Shown in pieces: positions 4,327 through 49,643 of a stretch of DNA of 49,643 bases. The DNA is taken from positions 1 to 49,643 of the forward strand of contig JAFWLM010000138.1 of the NCBI GenBank assembly GCA_017511045.1. Reading direction: 5' to 3'. Under the pieces are notes generated by a model. It made no database searches, was not told where the DNA came from, and was given only the letters and a program-made list of their open reading frames with translations. Position numbers and translations under genes: made by a program. Position 1 is the first letter of the stretch. Each line of letters opens with the position of its first letter. This stretch comes from Lachnospiraceae bacterium. GTDB taxonomy: Bacteria; Bacillota; Clostridia; Lachnospirales; Lachnospiraceae.

Positions 4327-5619
4327 ATGAAGAAAGCGTTACCGCGTTCTGTTTATGCCATTTTCGGCGTTATTGTTCTATTATTTGCGGGTCTTGTATA
4401 TGCATGGTCAACTTTTTCCAAACCGCTTACAAACATCTGGACACCGGGTGCTTTGACCTGGACTTCAACCATCGTTATGTGTGCCTTCTGTATCGGAGGT
4501 CTGATCAGCGGGCGAATGCAGAAACGAGGCATCAATCTGAAAGTGATCATGATCATCGGTGCAGTCCTGATGCTTGCCGGATTTGCTCTTTCGGGGCTTT
4601 TGGGAAACGCAACAGGTTCGATCCTGTTTATCTTTATCGGCTTCGGAGGCTTCGGAGGACTCGGTGCAGGTCTTGCTTATAACGTGATCTTAAGTGCTGT
4701 CGGCGCCTGGTTCCCGGATAAACAGGGACTGATCTCCGGCATCCTTCTTATGGGATTCGGCATCAGTTCATTTTTGATGGGTCTGCTGTATGCGGCAAAC
4801 GTGGATCAGATGGACGGAAAGGGCGGAATTCCCTGGTATATCTGTTTCTTAGCGATCGGCATCGGATGTTTTATCTTTATTACGATCGGGGCTTTGGTTG
4901 TAAGAAGACCCGGGCCGGAATTTGTTGCACCGGAACCGAAGCCGGGCAAAAAGAGAAAAAATACAACAGAGCCATATGAAGACGTTCCGACCACCAGCAT
5001 GGTGAAGAGAGCCAATTTCTGGCTGATGTTTATCTGGGCGACGATCACAACCGTTGCCGGTTTTGCAGTCGTATTTTTGGGTACACCGATTGCGACTGCA
5101 GCAGTGCCGACGCTGAACAACAGCGCAAGTCTGCTTGCCATGATCGTAGGCCTGATCTCCATCTTTAATGGAATCGGCAGGATCTTATTTGGAGCCCTGT
5201 TTGATAAGGCCGGATATAAGGTGACGCTGCTTGGTATCTGTATCTGCTTCATTGTGTCCATGGGACTGATTATTCTGGCAATGCTTACAGGAAGCCTGAT
5301 CTTCCTGATCATTGGCTATGTCACGACCGGTCTTGCCTTCGGAGGCGTTACGACCAGTCAGTCTGCATACTGCAATAAGATGTTCGGTGCAAAATATTAT
5401 GCGCAGAATCTTCCGATCATGATCCTGGTCATTCTGCCGGCATCCTTCGGAACCAAACTTGTGCAGGCAGTGCAGAGCAGCCTGGAGGGTGGCGGTATGT
5501 CGCCTACCGGAGCCTATATTGTTGTATTATGCGGCGTTGCTGCGATCTGCCTGATTGCAGGCATTATAGCGCTGTTTATTAAAAAACCTGTCACTGCAGA
5601 GCAGAAGGAACAGGCGTAA
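4327..5619 (+). CDS. MFS transporter, OFA-like (tandem copy A)
   Basis: 430-aa integral membrane protein of the oxalate/formate antiporter-like MFS branch with about 12 transmembrane segments. It contains the family motif WFPDKQGLISGILLMGFG near residues 128-145 and a Lys/Arg-rich central cytoplasmic loop (about residues 200-217). It is a close paralogue of the next gene: the stretch from YAANVDQMDG through the following helix is nearly identical in both. It is the first gene of an apparent six-gene unit with a transhydroxylase-like molybdoenzyme, which suggests import of the aromatic substrate or export of a product. The substrate is not determinable. A GGGAG ribosome site lies before the ATG. 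Confidence 0.85.
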   Translation: MKKALPRSVYAIFGVIVLLFAGLVYAWSTFSKPLTNIWTPGALTWTSTIVMCAFCIGGLISGRMQKRGINLKVIMIIGAVLMLAGFALSGLLGNATGSILFIFIGFGGFGGLGAGLAYNVILSAVGAWFPDKQGLISGILLMGFGISSFLMGLLYAANVDQMDGKGGIPWYICFLAIGIGCFIFITIGALVVRRPGPEFVAPEPKPGKKRKNTTEPYEDVPTTSMVKRANFWLMFIWATITTVAGFAVVFLGTPIATAAVPTLNNSASLLAMIVGLISIFNGIGRILFGALFDKAGYKVTLLGICICFIVSMGLIILAMLTGSLIFLIIGYVTTGLAFGGVTTSQSAYCNKMFGAKYYAQNLPIMILVILPASFGTKLVQAVQSSLEGGGMSPTGAYIVVLCGVAAICLIAGIIALFIKKPVTAEQKEQA

Positions 5620-40796: not shown

Positions 40797-41041
40797 CAAG
40801 GTGTCAACTGTCACCCCGGAAACAGCAAGGACTGTTTATTACAGACGAGGATAACTGTATTTAGCAGCCAAAGATAGGAACAAAGAATAAAAGGGATGGC
40901 ATATTGCCTGAAATGGCATAAAGTAATCATTGGTTCATTAGATGAGTGATAAGGCTTTTCATCTGACGAGTACTCAATTTTCAGACGATATGCTTTAGCC
41001 TCATCTGAAAAAAAGTAATAAAAATAGTAAGGAGAATGGAT
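40797..41041 (+). other. Leader region of fhs with short inverted repeats
   Basis: 245 nt without a gene. It contains AGATGA (40940-40945) complementary to TCATCT (40959-40964) and repeated CATCTGA/TCAGACG strings near 40960-41010, so a folded leader is possible. No clear promoter hexamers and no recognisable tetrahydrofolate riboswitch were seen. Confidence 0.35.
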
Positions 41042-42724
41042 ATGGCAGAGTTTAAAACAGATATCGAGATTGCTCAGGAAGCACAGCCGCAGCACATCAG
41101 AGACATTGCTGCAAAAATCGGTCTTACCGAAGACGACATCGAGTACTATGGAAAGTACAAAGCTAAGGTTGACTACAACCTGCTTGCTACTCCACGTGCA
41201 GATGGCGTAAAACCGAAACTGATCCTTTGCACCGCGATCAACCCGACCCCGGCAGGCGAAGGAAAAACAACAACAACTGTAGGTGTTGGTGATGCACTTT
41301 CCAAACTTGGAAAGAAGACCGTTATCGCTTTAAGAGAGCCTTCTTTAGGACCTGTATTCGGTGTTAAGGGCGGCGCTGCAGGCGGCGGATATGCACAGGT
41401 CGTTCCGATGGAAGATATCAACCTTCACTTCACAGGTGACTTCCATGCAATCGGCGCAGCAAACAACCTGCTTGCTGCAATGGTAGACAACCACATTTAT
41501 CAGGGCAACGCTCTTGACATTGACCCGCGTCGTGTTGTTTGGAGAAGATGCGTTGATATGAATGACAGACAGCTTCGTAACGTTGTTGATGGTCTTGGCG
41601 GAAAAGCTAACGGCTATACAAGAGAAGACGGATTTGACATCACAGTTGCATCCGAAGTTATGGCTGCTTTCTGTCTGGCAACAGGACTGGATGACCTCAA
41701 AGAGCGTTTCTCCAGAATCGTTGTTGCATACAACAGAAGCGGTGAGCCTGTAACTGCAGGACAGATCAATGCACAGGGAGCTATGACAGCACTTCTTAAG
41801 GATGCGCTGAAACCGAACCTGGTTCAGACCCTGGAAGGAACCCCGGCATTCATCCATGGCGGCCCGTTCGCTAACATCGCACACGGCTGCAACTCTGTTA
41901 TGGCTACAAAGATGGCTCTTCACTTTGGTGATTATGTTGTTACCGAGGCTGGTTTCGGTGCTGACCTTGGTGCTGAGAAATTCATCGACATCAAGTGCCG
42001 TCTGACAGGACTTCGTCCGGACGCTGTTATCATCGTTGCTACAATCAAGGCTCTGAAATACAACGGTGGTGTTCCGAAGGCTGACGTAGGCAAAGAAAAC
42101 CTTGAAGCTCTTGAAGCAGGTCTTCCGAACCTCTTAAAGCATGTTGAGAACATTACTCAGGTATTCGGCCTTCCGGCTGTTGTTGCTCTTAACAGATTCG
42201 CTAACGATACTGATGCTGAGATCGAACTCGTAACTAAGAAGTGCGCTGAGCTCGGTGTTAACGTTAAGATGAGCGAAGTTTGGGGCAAAGGCGGCGACGG
42301 CGGTATCGAGCTTGCTGAAGAAGTTATCCGTCTTTGCGAGCAGCCGAACGACTTCAAATTCTCTTATGATGAGAACCTTTCCATCCGTGAGAAGATCGAA
42401 GCTATCGCTACTAAAGTTTATGGCGCTGACGGCGTAGATTTCGCTCCGAAGGCTGCAAAAGAGATCGACGAGCTTGAGAAATTCGGTTATGGCAATATGC
42501 CTGTCTGCATGGCTAAGACCCAGTATTCTCTGACTGATGATCAGACGAAACTCGGACGTCCGACAGGATTCCGTATCACGATCCGTCAGGTAACCGTTTC
42601 CGCAGGTGCTGGATTCGTTGTTGCTCTGACCGGCGAGATCATGAAGATGCCTGGACTTCCGAAAGTACCGGCAGCTGAGAAGATCGACGTTGACAACACA
42701 GGAAAGATTTCCGGTCTGTTCTAA
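41042..42724 (+). CDS. fhs: Formate-tetrahydrofolate ligase (formyl-THF synthetase)
   Basis: 560-aa enzyme that joins formate to tetrahydrofolate with ATP, first step of the methyl branch of the Wood-Ljungdahl pathway. Motifs: [20 protein letters not shown] (ATP loop, about residue 61), [36 protein letters not shown], and [10 protein letters not shown]. The start at 41042 is preferred over 41036 because AAGGAG then stands 7 nt upstream instead of abutting the codon. It is followed by structured RNA and fchA. It may serve formate assimilation, since formate is a usual co-substrate of this type of aromatic fermentation. Confidence 0.97.
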
Positions 42725-42933
42725 TAATTGCACGGCAATTATTAGAACGCTGCGCGAGCATTGCACACGGATTTGCATTTGAATGATGCTTCGCATCAGC
42801 AAATCCGGCGCGGGAAACGTACAACGTTTCCCATGTTAAGCAGACATTGGCAAAGACCAAAGCGCTGCGTGAACATTGTTTTTGAGTCATTACGACTTCA
42901 AAGGTGGCATGGCTCATTTGAGCCTGCCACCTT
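42721..42933 (+). other. Strongly structured intergenic RNA region between fhs and fchA
   Basis: Four consecutive stems: CTAATAATTGC/GCAATTATTAG (42721-42745, includes the fhs stop codon, 3-nt loop); GGATTTGC/GCAAATCC (42769-42776 with 42799-42806) enclosing TGATGC-TTC-GCATCA; GGGAAACGT/ACGTTTCCC (42812-42832, 3-nt loop); and AAGGTGGCATGGCTC with GAGCCTGCCACCTT (42901-42933). A 15-nt direct repeat (GCTGCG.GA.CATTG, 42749-42763 and 42864-42878) frames the middle. Only the last stem resembles a weak terminator. No gene of note lies inside. Confidence 0.7.
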
Positions 42934-42963
42934 ACTTATTTCTATTTGATTGGAGTGATTTAT

Positions 42964-43599
42964 ATGATCAGTCAGAAAACGTTACCTGATTTTGTCCAGG
43001 TTTTAGCTTCTAAGGAGCCGGTGCCGGGTGGCGGCGGAGCAGCTGCTTTGTGTGCTGCTGTCGGAACTGCTCTCGGAAACATGGTTGGATCCCTTACAGT
43101 CGGCAAAAAGAAATATGCCGAGGTGGAAGACCGTATCATCGAATTAAAAGCAAAATCTGATGCGCTGCAGACCAGATTCCTTCAGCTGATCGATGAGGAT
43201 GCTGCAGGCTTTGAGCCGCTTTCAAAAGCATACGGACTTCCGGCAAATACCGACGAGGAGAAAGCACATAAGAAACTCGTCCTAGAAGAGTGCAGTGTGG
43301 AAGCATGCAAAGTTCCGATGGAAATCATGGAACGCTGCTGTGAAGCGATCGATATCATCGAGGAATTTGCTGAGAAAGGTTCTGTTCTTGCAGTATCCGA
43401 TGCAGGATGCGGAGCTGTTACAGTGAAGTCTGCACTGTTTGCTGCCAGCCTTAATATTTTCATCAATACAAAAGGTATGGAGAACAGAGATAAGGCCAAA
43501 GAACTAAACGACAAGACAGAGAAGATGCTTGCAGACTATGGCAAAAAAGCAGACGCGATCTTTGATATGGTTGCGGCAAAGCTGAAACCTGCAGAATAA
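42964..43599 (+). CDS. fchA: Cyclodeaminase/cyclohydrolase family protein (methenyl-THF cyclohydrolase)
   Basis: 211-aa helical protein of the formiminotransferase-cyclodeaminase-like family. The N-terminal PVPGGGGAAALCAAVGTALGNMVGSLTVGK segment is diagnostic. In acetogens and other clostridia FchA hydrolyses 5,10-methenyl-THF to 10-formyl-THF or the reverse. Position after fhs supports that role. The start at 42964 is chosen because GGAG lies 8 nt upstream. Confidence 0.9.
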   Translation: MISQKTLPDFVQVLASKEPVPGGGGAAALCAAVGTALGNMVGSLTVGKKKYAEVEDRIIELKAKSDALQTRFLQLIDEDAAGFEPLSKAYGLPANTDEEKAHKKLVLEECSVEACKVPMEIMERCCEAIDIIEEFAEKGSVLAVSDAGCGAVTVKSALFAASLNIFINTKGMENRDKAKELNDKTEKMLADYGKKADAIFDMVAAKLKPAE

Positions 43600-44677: not shown

Positions 44678-44765
44678 CACAGCGCGGATATCATTCGTTC
44701 ATAACCGAACAACTTGTTCGGACAAATATATAAACAATAAGCGAAAAGCTTAGGAGGATAATTAA

Positions 44766-45155
<390 letters not shown>

Positions 45156-45170
45156 AGGCGGTAGCTGGAA

Positions 45171-45659
45171 ATGACTGGAGTTCCACTGAATTTAGATTGG
45201 CAGCAAATTTTGCTGCATCTCATGAATTTTGTGATCCTGTTTGCCATCCTGTATTTTCTGCTTTACAAACCGGTCCGAGGTTTTATGGATAAGCGTAAAG
45301 CCGCTTATCAGGAAATGGACGATCAGGCAAATCAGAATAAGCAGGAGGCTGAAGAGCTGAAAGCTCAATATGAACAGCAGCTTGCTGCGGCTGATGCCGA
45401 GATCGCCGAAAAGAAAGCGGCTGCAATTCATGCGGCGGAAGCGCGGGCAAAGGGAATCGAGCAGAAAGCACAGGACGAAGCTGCGGATATTATTTCCAAG
45501 GCAAAACGCCAGGCAGAGTCCGAGCGTGACCGCATTGTCGGCGAGGCCGGAGATACGATCACGGAAATGGCAAAAGAAGCAGCCGAGAAAGCTCTTTTCG
45601 GTACGACTTCCGATGCGTTCGATTCGTTCCTGAATATGGTAGAGGATGAAGCAAAATGA
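45171..45659 (+). CDS. atpF: F-type ATP synthase subunit b
   Basis: 162-aa stator subunit: one N-terminal membrane helix (LMNFVILFAILYFLLYKPV) and a long, Ala/Glu/Lys-rich coiled coil to the C-terminus. The length is normal and there is no fused delta sequence. Its TGA stop overlaps the ATG of the next gene (ATGA), so the two are translationally coupled. In a normal enzyme the C-terminus of b binds delta; here that domain is on alpha. Confidence 0.92.
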   Translation: MTGVPLNLDWQQILLHLMNFVILFAILYFLLYKPVRGFMDKRKAAYQEMDDQANQNKQEAEELKAQYEQQLAAADAEIAEKKAAAIHAAEARAKGIEQKAQDEAADIISKAKRQAESERDRIVGEAGDTITEMAKEAAEKALFGTTSDAFDSFLNMVEDEAK

Positions 45660-47398
45660 CAGATGAGATTCGTGCTGTTCTGTATTCCGATGTTCCGCCT
45701 TCTGCGGAGCAGGAAAGCAGATTTAAGCAGTTTTTAAAGAATAAATATGAACAGGAAGTTCCTTTCGAGTGGATCGAGGATACTTCCATTAAAGAGGGAT
45801 TTCAGCTTCGTGTCGGAGCTGAAGTTTATGATTGGAGCCGTGGAGGCGTCTTCAGACAGTTTGTGGATGCGTTTGCTGCCAGAAAGTACCGTGGCAGAGA
45901 TACGATCCCGCTGCTGAAAGAGGCTTTAGAAGACTGGGAGCTTGCAGCGCTTCCGGAAGAAGTCGGAACGGTTCTGACGGTTGGTGATGGTATCGCAGAG
46001 ATCGATGGCCTCGAAAATGCGGCATATGGCGAGATCCTGATCTTTGAATCAGGCGTTCGCGGTATGGTGCAGAGCTTAAAAGAAGATACCGTTGGCTGCA
46101 TTATTTTTGATGCTGATAACGATATCTCTGCCGGAACGAGCGTTAAGCGTTCCGGGAAAACAGCAAGCATGCCGGTTGGTGATGCCTTCTTAGGTCGTGT
46201 TGTTGACTCTTTAGGTGTTCCGATCGATGGCCTTGGCCCGATCGAAGCTGCGGATTATAACCCGATCGAGCGTCCGGCGCCTGGTATCATTGACAGACAG
46301 CCTGTCAATCAGCCGCTGAATACGGGTCTTTTGGTTATCGATTCCATGTTCCCAATCGGCCGCGGACAGAGAGAGTTGATCATTGGAGACCGCCAGACAG
46401 GAAAGACGGCGATCGCACTTGATGCGATCATCAACCAGAAAGATAAAAATTGTATTTGTATCTACGTTGCGATCGGACAGAAGACTGGCAGCGTCGTACA
46501 GCTGACAGAAACGCTCAGAAAACACGGCGCACTGGATTATTCCGTTGTCGTTGCTGCAAATGCCAGCGATTCGGATCCGCTCCAGTATATCGCGCCTTAT
46601 GCAGGCTGCGCACTTGCTGAGTATTTCATGGAGCAGGGAAAAGATGTCCTGATCATTTATGATGACCTTTCCAAGCATGCGGTTGCATACCGTGCAATCT
46701 CGCTGCTGCTTGAGCATCCGCCAGGACGTGAGGCATACCCTGGAGATATCTTCTATCTGCATTCCCGCCTGTTAGAGCGCAGTGCTCGTTTAAGCGAGGA
46801 AAAAGGCGGCGGAAGTATTACGGCTCTTCCAATCGTTGAAACGCAGGATGGAGATGTATCCGCGTATATCCCGACTAACATCATTTCCATTACTGACGGA
46901 CAGATCTACCTCGAAGAAAATCTCTTCTTCTCAGGTCAGAGACCGGCTGTTAATGTCGGACTTTCTGTCTCCCGTGTCGGCGGTGACGCACAGACAAAAG
47001 CGGTTAAAAAAGCGACGGGCTCTTTGCGTCTGGATCTTGCGCAGTACAGGGAAATGGAAGTCTTTACGAAGTTCTCCAGTGACTTGGACGATGCGACAAA
47101 GAATCAGCTTGAATACGGCATGGGACTGATGCGTATGCTTCGTCAGCCGCAGTACAAGCCATATTCGCAGCATCAGCAGGTCGTAATGCTGGTTAGTGCG
47201 ATCGCACATTGCATGCAGGGCATTCCGGCTGCAGACATTAATAAATTCACTGCGGAACTCAATACATCGTTTGAAGATGTACATGGAGAGATCTGCAGCG
47301 AGATCGATGAGACCGGTCAGTTAAGCGACGAGAATAAAGATGCGATCATCGAGTTTGCAACAAAGCTTGCAGAAAAATATAAACCGACGGAAGAGTAA
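45656..47398 (+). CDS. atpA: ATP synthase alpha subunit with N-terminal delta (OSCP) C-terminal domain fusion
   Basis: 580 aa, versus about 500 for alpha. Residues 1 to about 75 match the C-terminal domain of delta (RAVLYSDVPPSAEQ…RVGAEVYDWSRGG), and a canonical alpha follows from about residue 80 (EEVGTVLTVGDGIAEIDGL), with Walker A GDRQTGKT, DDLSKHAVAYRAISLLL and the C-terminal SVSRVGG block. The reading frame is continuous and there is no in-frame ATG with a good ribosome site at the alpha start, so it is a real fusion. No separate atpH exists: this gene directly overlaps atpF. The N-terminal domain of delta is missing. GTG at 45863 behind GGAGG (16 nt) could at best give weak internal initiation of plain alpha. 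Confidence 0.9.
   Translation: MTDEIRAVLYSDVPPSAEQESRFKQFLKNKYEQEVPFEWIEDTSIKEGFQLRVGAEVYDWSRGGVFRQFVDAFAARKYRGRDTIPLLKEALEDWELAALPEEVGTVLTVGDGIAEIDGLENAAYGEILIFESGVRGMVQSLKEDTVGCIIFDADNDISAGTSVKRSGKTASMPVGDAFLGRVVDSLGVPIDGLGPIEAADYNPIERPAPGIIDRQPVNQPLNTGLLVIDSMFPIGRGQRELIIGDRQTGKTAIALDAIINQKDKNCICIYVAIGQKTGSVVQLTETLRKHGALDYSVVVAANASDSDPLQYIAPYAGCALAEYFMEQGKDVLIIYDDLSKHAVAYRAISLLLEHPPGREAYPGDIFYLHSRLLERSARLSEEKGGGSITALPIVETQDGDVSAYIPTNIISITDGQIYLEENLFFSGQRPAVNVGLSVSRVGGDAQTKAVKKATGSLRLDLAQYREMEVFTKFSSDLDDATKNQLEYGMGLMRMLRQPQYKPYSQHQQVVMLVSAIAHCMQGIPAADINKFTAELNTSFEDVHGEICSEIDETGQLSDENKDAIIEFATKLAEKYKPTEE

Positions 47399-47473: not shown

Positions 47474-49643
<2,170 letters not shown>

Follow-up and report, generated by a model that had tools for sequence, protein, structure and literature searches.

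Fusion of the delta C-terminal domain to the alpha subunit of F-type ATP synthases in Clostridia and its possible bearing on stalk number

INTRODUCTION

Textbook F-type ATP synthases possess one delta subunit and one stalk, and in the ordinary enzyme the delta N-terminal domain (NTD) fixes this single delta atop the alpha3beta3 ring. In a stretch of 49,643 nucleotides from a Lachnospiraceae bacterium (positions 1 to 49,643 of contig JAFWLM010000138.1, assembly GCA_017511045.1), referred to here as the window, the atp operon encodes an alpha subunit that starts with what reads as the C-terminal domain (CTD) of delta. This raises the question of how the stator is built when the b-binding domain is part of alpha, and how many stalks such an enzyme may carry.

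RESULTS

The fused gene and its operon

The features of the operon are compiled in Table 1. The genes are arranged in the order a-c-b-alpha-gamma-beta; in the close relative L002, beta is followed by an epsilon gene. TIGR00962 covers residues 82 to 575 of the fused gene product with 726 bits (curated cut-off, 484.45), indicating that a full-length F-type alpha is present behind the N-terminal extension. The b protein has almost the median length of its CTD-fused counterparts (163 aa), and its gene, which the preliminary description had noted to overlap atpA directly, shares four bases with it.

At its N terminus, the c subunit is extended by about 60 residues, a feature common to the clade of the window. 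c ORFs comprise at least 106 aa inside this clade and at most 93 aa outside, corresponding to one change on the alpha+beta tree described below; the longest c ORFs (217 to 445 aa) are probably due to start-codon choices. By our reading, the extension opens with a signal-like hydrophobic stretch in this clade of 41 rows. Directly upstream of the operon (window positions 41036 to 43599) lie genes for a formate-tetrahydrofolate ligase and a methenyltetrahydrofolate cyclohydrolase-like protein, the latter scoring below its NCBIfam cut-off; both are also found in L002. No RnfC scoring over its cut-off was retrieved from the genome of the window (G000, 81% complete).

Table 1. Coordinates of the features of the atp operon in the window and of the gamma-beta frames in relatives
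Feature	Position	Strand	Remarks
atpB (a), 286 aa	43817..44677	+	PF00119
atpE (c), 129 aa	44766..45155	+	PF00137 at residues 62-125
atpF (b), 162 aa	45171..45659	+	PF00430, E value 5.2e-17
FDSFL, C-terminal motif of b	45618..45632	+	b end expected to dock on delta CTD
ATGA, 4-base overlap of atpF stop with fused atpA start	45656..45659	+	
Fused atpA: delta CTD, linker, and complete alpha, 580 aa	45656..47398	+	
Delta (OSCP) CTD, residues 1-78 of the fusion	45656..45889	+	
Junction: linker and alpha N-terminal helix (IPLLKEALEDW), residues 79-101	45890..45958	+	Bounds are the analysts' choice
Alpha body with nucleotide-binding domain	45959..47395	+	PF02874, PF00006, PF00306; TIGR00962
atpG (gamma)	47474..48379	+	PF00231
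atpD (beta), cut by window end	48381..49643	+	ORF 48237-49643, open at 3' end; start methionine (48381) inferred
Gamma-beta frame	L154:7596-9956		
Gamma-beta frame	L161:6615-8999		
Gamma-beta frame	L233 (G688:C71:3500-15500)	-	

The extension corresponds to the b-binding part of delta

The delta CTD was recognized by both sequence and fold. The PF00213 match in the window is modest and begins at profile position 101, that is, the C-terminal b-binding part is present and the N-terminal six-helix part, which binds alpha, is absent, and the domain starts approximately where the NTD would have ended. The profile match and the fold thus bear out the earlier proposal that residues 1 to 75 are the CTD of delta, and the starting point of the match bears out that the NTD has been lost. 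Ten of ten further CTD-fused relatives matched PF00213 near positions 95 to 172 with E values below 0.01, five of them at or above the cut-off.

The full-length structure model had a mean pLDDT of 59.9, and its N-terminal part alone was used; the full-length prediction places a helix at residues 83 to 93 of the junction, where pLDDT is low. I84, P85, and W94 at the junction are invariant in all 14 rows of alignment A1. In comparison to L004, the dN/dS ratio was 0.22 for the delta domain and 0.07 for alpha, indicating that the domain is under purifying selection; in comparison to L003, dS was saturated.

Between the window and L002, dS amounts to 0.113 in the delta domain and 0.626 in alpha. 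The tract of low divergence (44760 to 45950) is patchy and includes c and b in addition to the delta domain, and L003 shows no clear rise in third-position identity. Constraint at the synonymous sites of the domain was rejected on these grounds, recombination between close strains being a likelier cause than an additional coding or RNA function.

No separate delta is found in the assembled genome, and the fusion is not an artefact

A six-frame search of the window's genome, a draft assembly of 151 contigs that is 80.85% complete, revealed no further PF00213 match and a single alpha over the TIGR00962 cut-off. The absence of atpH claimed in the preliminary description consequently holds for the operon and for the assembled genome, from whose sequence, being 81% complete, a separate delta could be missing. 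Among the 14 genomes behind L002 to L015, the fused domain is the sole PF00213 match in 13, and the genome of L014 contains a second, full delta. Two single-contig genomes that are both 99% complete, G278 (3.6 Mb) and G024 (1.8 Mb), carry fused genes (L146 and L150) that match PF00213 at positions 98 to 171 and 102 to 157, respectively. Each of these genomes has one PF00213 match, which is weak (E values of 7.8e-6 and 2.3e-5) and listed without coordinates, and one match to the alpha profile A1, which detects ordinary alphas too; the A1 match is the fused gene. The delta-less arrangement is therefore not a gap of draft genomes.

An assembly of 151 contigs and a modest Pfam match are what might be seen if an assembly or sequencing error had joined two genes or if the operon were decaying. 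The same fusion is, however, present in 62 nonredundant loci, including these two single-contig genomes and Oscillibacter sp. ER4 (L005), the strain record of which is not labelled as a metagenome-assembled genome (MAG). Furthermore, 24 columns are invariant among the 14 rows of alignment A2, and alpha and gamma are intact in the window. These independent genomes refute an artefact, to which we assign a negligible probability, and they establish that the continuous frame stated in the preliminary description is real.

Relatives form a graded series

The relatives of the window form a graded series in which (i) delta is separate, (ii) the whole delta is fused to alpha, (iii) the CTD only is fused, as in the window, or (iv) almost nothing of delta is left. 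At the class level, fused alphas without internal stops were found with profile A1 in at least 33 of 391 genomes, namely, in 29 and additionally in G015, G123, G003, and G338, which are more divergent. Within the family of the window, sampled with one genome per genus, 42 of 200 genomes had a fused alpha at E values up to 1e-25, a number that takes in CTD-only, whole-delta, and b-fused forms; two more pieces with short open frames were present in G547 and G490. The 101 annotated loci, from which L174 was left out, comprise 65 CTD-only, 22 whole-delta-fused, and 11 separate-delta loci, 2 loci without a delta domain, and 1 b-delta CTD-alpha locus. CTD-fused loci were defined by an N-terminal extension of at least 80 residues (87 to 154 were found) and the absence of a separate delta. 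The loci L002, L153, L166, L167, L178, L224, L225, and L174 were dropped before the nonredundant counts as near-identical or partial, as was L143 in the start scan.

Whole-delta fusions comprise 668 to 690 aa, and the alphas of the two domain-less loci, L156 and L169, have 530 and 522 aa. Our home-made delta profile misses many CTD-fused domains; a Pfam scan confirmed the whole-delta fusion of L165 and the triple fusion of L220, and it detected no PF00213 in either domain-less alpha. The N terminus of the latter two contains a short stretch that we read as aligned with the last delta helix. The genomes of both domain-less loci (G186 and G254) have a full-strength delta match, which lies on another contig in G186; in G254, no delta occurs within the stretch fetched around the locus, and the genome-wide match is without a listed position. 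Several genomes, for example G026 and G181, encode both a fused enzyme and an ordinary one whose delta is complete (L153/L177 and L152/L178, respectively). Where an ordinary operon coexists, delta could be borrowed from it.

Several loci showed individual peculiarities. (i) In L156, atpB is split into two ORFs (252-824 and 831-1121) in an operon without a delta domain, by decay or assembly error. (ii) At the beginning of the fused alpha frame L142:4226-6142, a repeat of some 21 residues occurs three times in tandem. (iii) Oscillibacter sp. ER4 has a second c-like gene upstream of atpB (L005:2560-2997). (iv) L176 (G372:C59:95000-106000) has a delta ORF of 348 aa with an extra C-terminal half in an otherwise ordinary operon.

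Other fusions in relatives

In three genomes, gamma, a rotor subunit, and beta, a stator subunit, are encoded in one open frame of 786, 794, or 831 aa (Table 1). The linkers differ in length, with QNGG-like repeats in G688, and the operons also carry a fused alpha. In other genomes of the family of these loci, gamma and beta are separate or the situation is unclear. F1 with the gamma C terminus cross-linked to the bearing has been reported to rotate still (PMC3536650), so that a gamma-beta chain need not jam the enzyme.

In one genome, a single frame of 778 aa (L220:4156-6492) encodes b, delta CTD, and alpha, with matches to PF00430, PF00213, and the alpha domains. Unless alpha has another source, each head would then hold three b anchored in the membrane. 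The delta part of this chain contains a run of ten A near position 4893, where one A more or fewer would lead to a stop soon after.

Probable repeated loss of the N-terminal domain

In a quick alpha tree of 100 rows, a branch with an SH-aLRT support of 100 unites 88 rows in which all delta states are mixed. Outside this branch are L171 and L172/L173 (CTD) as well as L219 (whole delta), which look like independent fusions. Changes in the NTD were counted on a more careful alpha+beta tree (IQ-TREE, LG+G4) of 89 of 94 rows, which leaves out L012 and L148 (short beta) and L139, L143, and L207 (beta absent from the region retrieved); the two trees differ in some shallow placements. The presence of the NTD changes 11 times among the 83 ingroup rows (10 to 11 times across bootstrap trees), and at least 6 of these changes are forced by strongly supported branches. 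Shuffling of the labels resulted in 21 changes on average. Since the regain of a lost domain is unlikely, we read these changes as repeated losses after fusion.

The state of delta, separate or fused, changes eight times over all 89 rows, at least five changes being forced, and the two states interleave, which reflects repeated fusion, splitting, or gene exchange. In the case of gene exchange, the count of NTD losses may be inflated and the true losses fewer. The subclade that contains the window has 41 rows (SH-aLRT, 99), none of which retains an NTD. Both domain-less loci nest inside this subclade and adjoin different CTD-fused relatives, amounting to two changes, one of which is forced by strong branches.

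A motif at the end of b accompanies the delta domain

The C terminus of b normally binds the C terminus of delta (PMC6131620). Near the end of b, we found a motif described by the loose pattern hydrophobic-x-x-F-[L/I/A/V/E], which was written after seeing the sequences. It occurs in 61 of the 62 CTD-fused, 16 of the 18 whole-delta-fused, and all 10 separate-delta loci as well as in the one triple fusion; neither of the two domain-less loci has it. The association of motif and delta domain has a Fisher P value of 0.0024 over 92 loci, uncorrected for relatedness, and this contrast rests on the two domain-less loci, including L156 with its split atpB. The domain-less loci also have the shortest b proteins (153 and 155 aa), the medians elsewhere being 161 to 166 aa; one CTD-fused b has 155 aa as well.

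Little support for a shorter alpha

The preliminary description had considered that a shorter alpha is also made. By internal initiation, slippage, or trimming, a head might then contain mixed alphas, with one long alpha replacing delta. We scanned 93 nonredundant loci for ATG, GTG, and TTG from 45 codons before to 12 codons after the start of the alpha core and found no conserved internal start at the delta-alpha junction. In the window, the junction contains one GTG that lacks a Shine-Dalgarno (SD)-like tetramer. Among the 62 CTD-fused loci, 6 have no start codon in this stretch, and in 40 none of the starts is accompanied by an SD-like tetramer. The remaining 16 possess such a tetramer at one start or more, which leaves some room for mixed alphas; the most frequent ATG position is common to 7 of the 62 loci. 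No start codon was found in the scanned stretch of 5 of the 18 whole-delta-fused loci. Runs of at least eight A are absent from all 80 CTD- and whole-delta-fused loci, and one such run was found in the triple fusion L220.

In another part of the operon, the clade offers a plausible case of internal initiation: in all three gamma-beta loci, an in-frame ATG stands where beta begins, with anti-SD energies (-7.9, -5.6, and -5.0) that are weak to moderate. This suggests that an internal start is kept where a 1:3 stoichiometry is needed, as for gamma and beta, and not at the delta-alpha junction. The median SD strength at the alpha start was slightly higher for CTD-fused loci (-6.6, n = 62) than for ordinary clostridial ones (-6.0, n = 19 of the 30 loci L076 to L105) and lower for whole-delta-fused loci (-4.5, n = 18); these medians use the best of several starts, and more codons were looked over for the fused genes. 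SD strengths, considered as a possible hint of subunit stoichiometry, did not cleanly separate a, b, and alpha. Proteolytic trimming or other starts could still yield short alphas, but the lone GTG of the window, the loci devoid of start codons, the unconserved positions, and the lack of A-runs make a mixture of long and short alphas improbable.

DISCUSSION

A proposed stator with several docking sites

We conclude with considerable confidence that the operon of the window encodes a functional F-type ATP synthase whose delta is cut down to its b-binding CTD and fused to the alpha N terminus, that b docks on at least one of these clamps, and that two or three stalks are possible in principle. 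Given that alpha is the sole source of the domain and that a shorter alpha is not predicted, each F1 head would offer three equivalent docking sites for b. The C-terminal end of b would dock on one or more of them and thereby complete the stator. The early suggestion that this stator must be built differently is thus supported insofar as the b-binding domain is supplied by alpha alone. Since the clamp is covalently tied to alpha, the NTD would have become dispensable and hence been lost. Its loss would leave the threefold axis free, permitting in principle two or three stalks, each paired with an a subunit of its own.

All three alphas may carry the domain while a single b2 stalk and one a subunit assemble and two domains stay idle, the fusion then being a neutral or assembly-helping gene merger. 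To this we give nearly an even chance. The operon has a single a and a single b gene, and whole-delta-fused lineages exist (18 nonredundant loci); as the axis has no room for three NTDs, a fused head need not be multi-stalk. What speaks against idle domains is, in part, experimental. Ueno et al. (2025) removed residues 2 to 104 of the delta of Bacillus PS3 and fused the rest to alpha, which resulted in an active enzyme (PMC12229609). In this delta(105-178)-alpha enzyme, which also lacked the epsilon CTD, cryo-EM showed as many as three stalks and three a subunits, and SDS-PAGE indicated an average of two stalks, with a and b unchanged (PMC12229609). The window has the same layout. Three-stalk particles were very few in cryo-EM, as would suit a single stalk, and the authors blame loss during preparation (PMC12229609). 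They also found the delta NTD to limit the enzyme to a single stalk (PMC12229609). In accordance, the repeated loss of exactly the NTD is better explained if this domain is superfluous or in the way.

The same work reports an H+/ATP ratio of 5.8 versus 3.0, an equilibrium proton motive force (pmf) of 68 versus 133 mV at a Q of 2.5, and ATP-driven pumping below that of the wild type (PMC12229609). We hold, tentatively and at somewhat under an even chance, that the fused clostridial enzymes are natural multi-stalk synthases. Each head would bear two or three copies of the b2 stalk and of the a subunit, with an approximately doubled or tripled ion-to-ATP ratio, and this route would have been taken at least six times in one clostridial clade because NTD loss frees the threefold axis. 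If true, anaerobic Clostridia would make ATP at an ion motive force too low for an ordinary enzyme.

Novelty and meaning

Neither the natural fusion lacking the NTD nor the multi-stalk idea is new, since the Discussion of PMC12229609 states both. The clostridial series, the whole-delta intermediates, the domain-less forms, and the b-delta-alpha fusions were not found described in the open-access papers searched, bioRxiv preprints aside. The same applies to the gamma-beta fusions, for a search directed at fused delta and alpha and at the number of stalks. Nor did these papers report the breadth of the arrangement, its intermediates, or the repeated domain loss. The arrangement is real and widespread in Clostridia; it is of a very recently recognized kind and has unusually rich relatives. 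The question of whether natural multi-stalk ATP synthases exist can now be addressed in named strains, among them Oscillibacter sp. ER4, which is cultured, judging by its record, and close relatives that keep the NTD provide built-in controls.

Comparison with known systems

N-ATPases share the lack of a separate delta; their gene order is beta-epsilon-X-X-a-c-b-alpha-gamma (PMC11738941), which differs from that of the window, and their b is longer (PMC5706428). An N-ATPase was rejected, as the alpha of the window scored 606.3 bits against a TIGR03324 cut-off of 750.5 and the gene order differs too. V-type ATPases with three E/G stalks are made of different subunits, whereas the enzyme of the window is F-type. 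The mycobacterial b-delta fusion (for example, PDB 7jg5, chain d) likewise joins a stator subunit to delta, and its C-terminal part is among the matches obtained. In the mycobacterial type, delta is fused to b and present in one copy per enzyme; in the window, by contrast, b is encoded by a gene of its own, and a chain of b, delta CTD, and alpha was seen only in L220.

Acidaminococcus belongs to the Negativicutes. For A. fermentans, a natural delta-alpha fusion without the NTD has been described, to which the UniProt entries G4Q3K6 and A0A1I2C5T3 look similar, and the authors call a multi-stalk structure "highly likely" (PMC12229609). Compared by description only, this fusion agrees with that of the window in the joining of delta and alpha and in the missing NTD.

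The engineered PS3 delta-deltaN-alpha FoF1 (PDB 9jc1) was designed by hand, its epsilon CTD was removed, and its stalk number and H+/ATP ratio were measured; the clade of the window differs in the extended c subunit, and L002 keeps an epsilon of 156 aa. Both have in common that the NTD is removed, that the CTD is attached via a short linker to the alpha N terminus, and that a separate delta is lacking. The engineered chain (9jc1_I) has the same length as the window fusion, 580 aa, and it aligns with positions 6 to 572 of the profile of the relatives; for the others among the 60 listed PDB chains, the alignment begins at profile position 73 or later.
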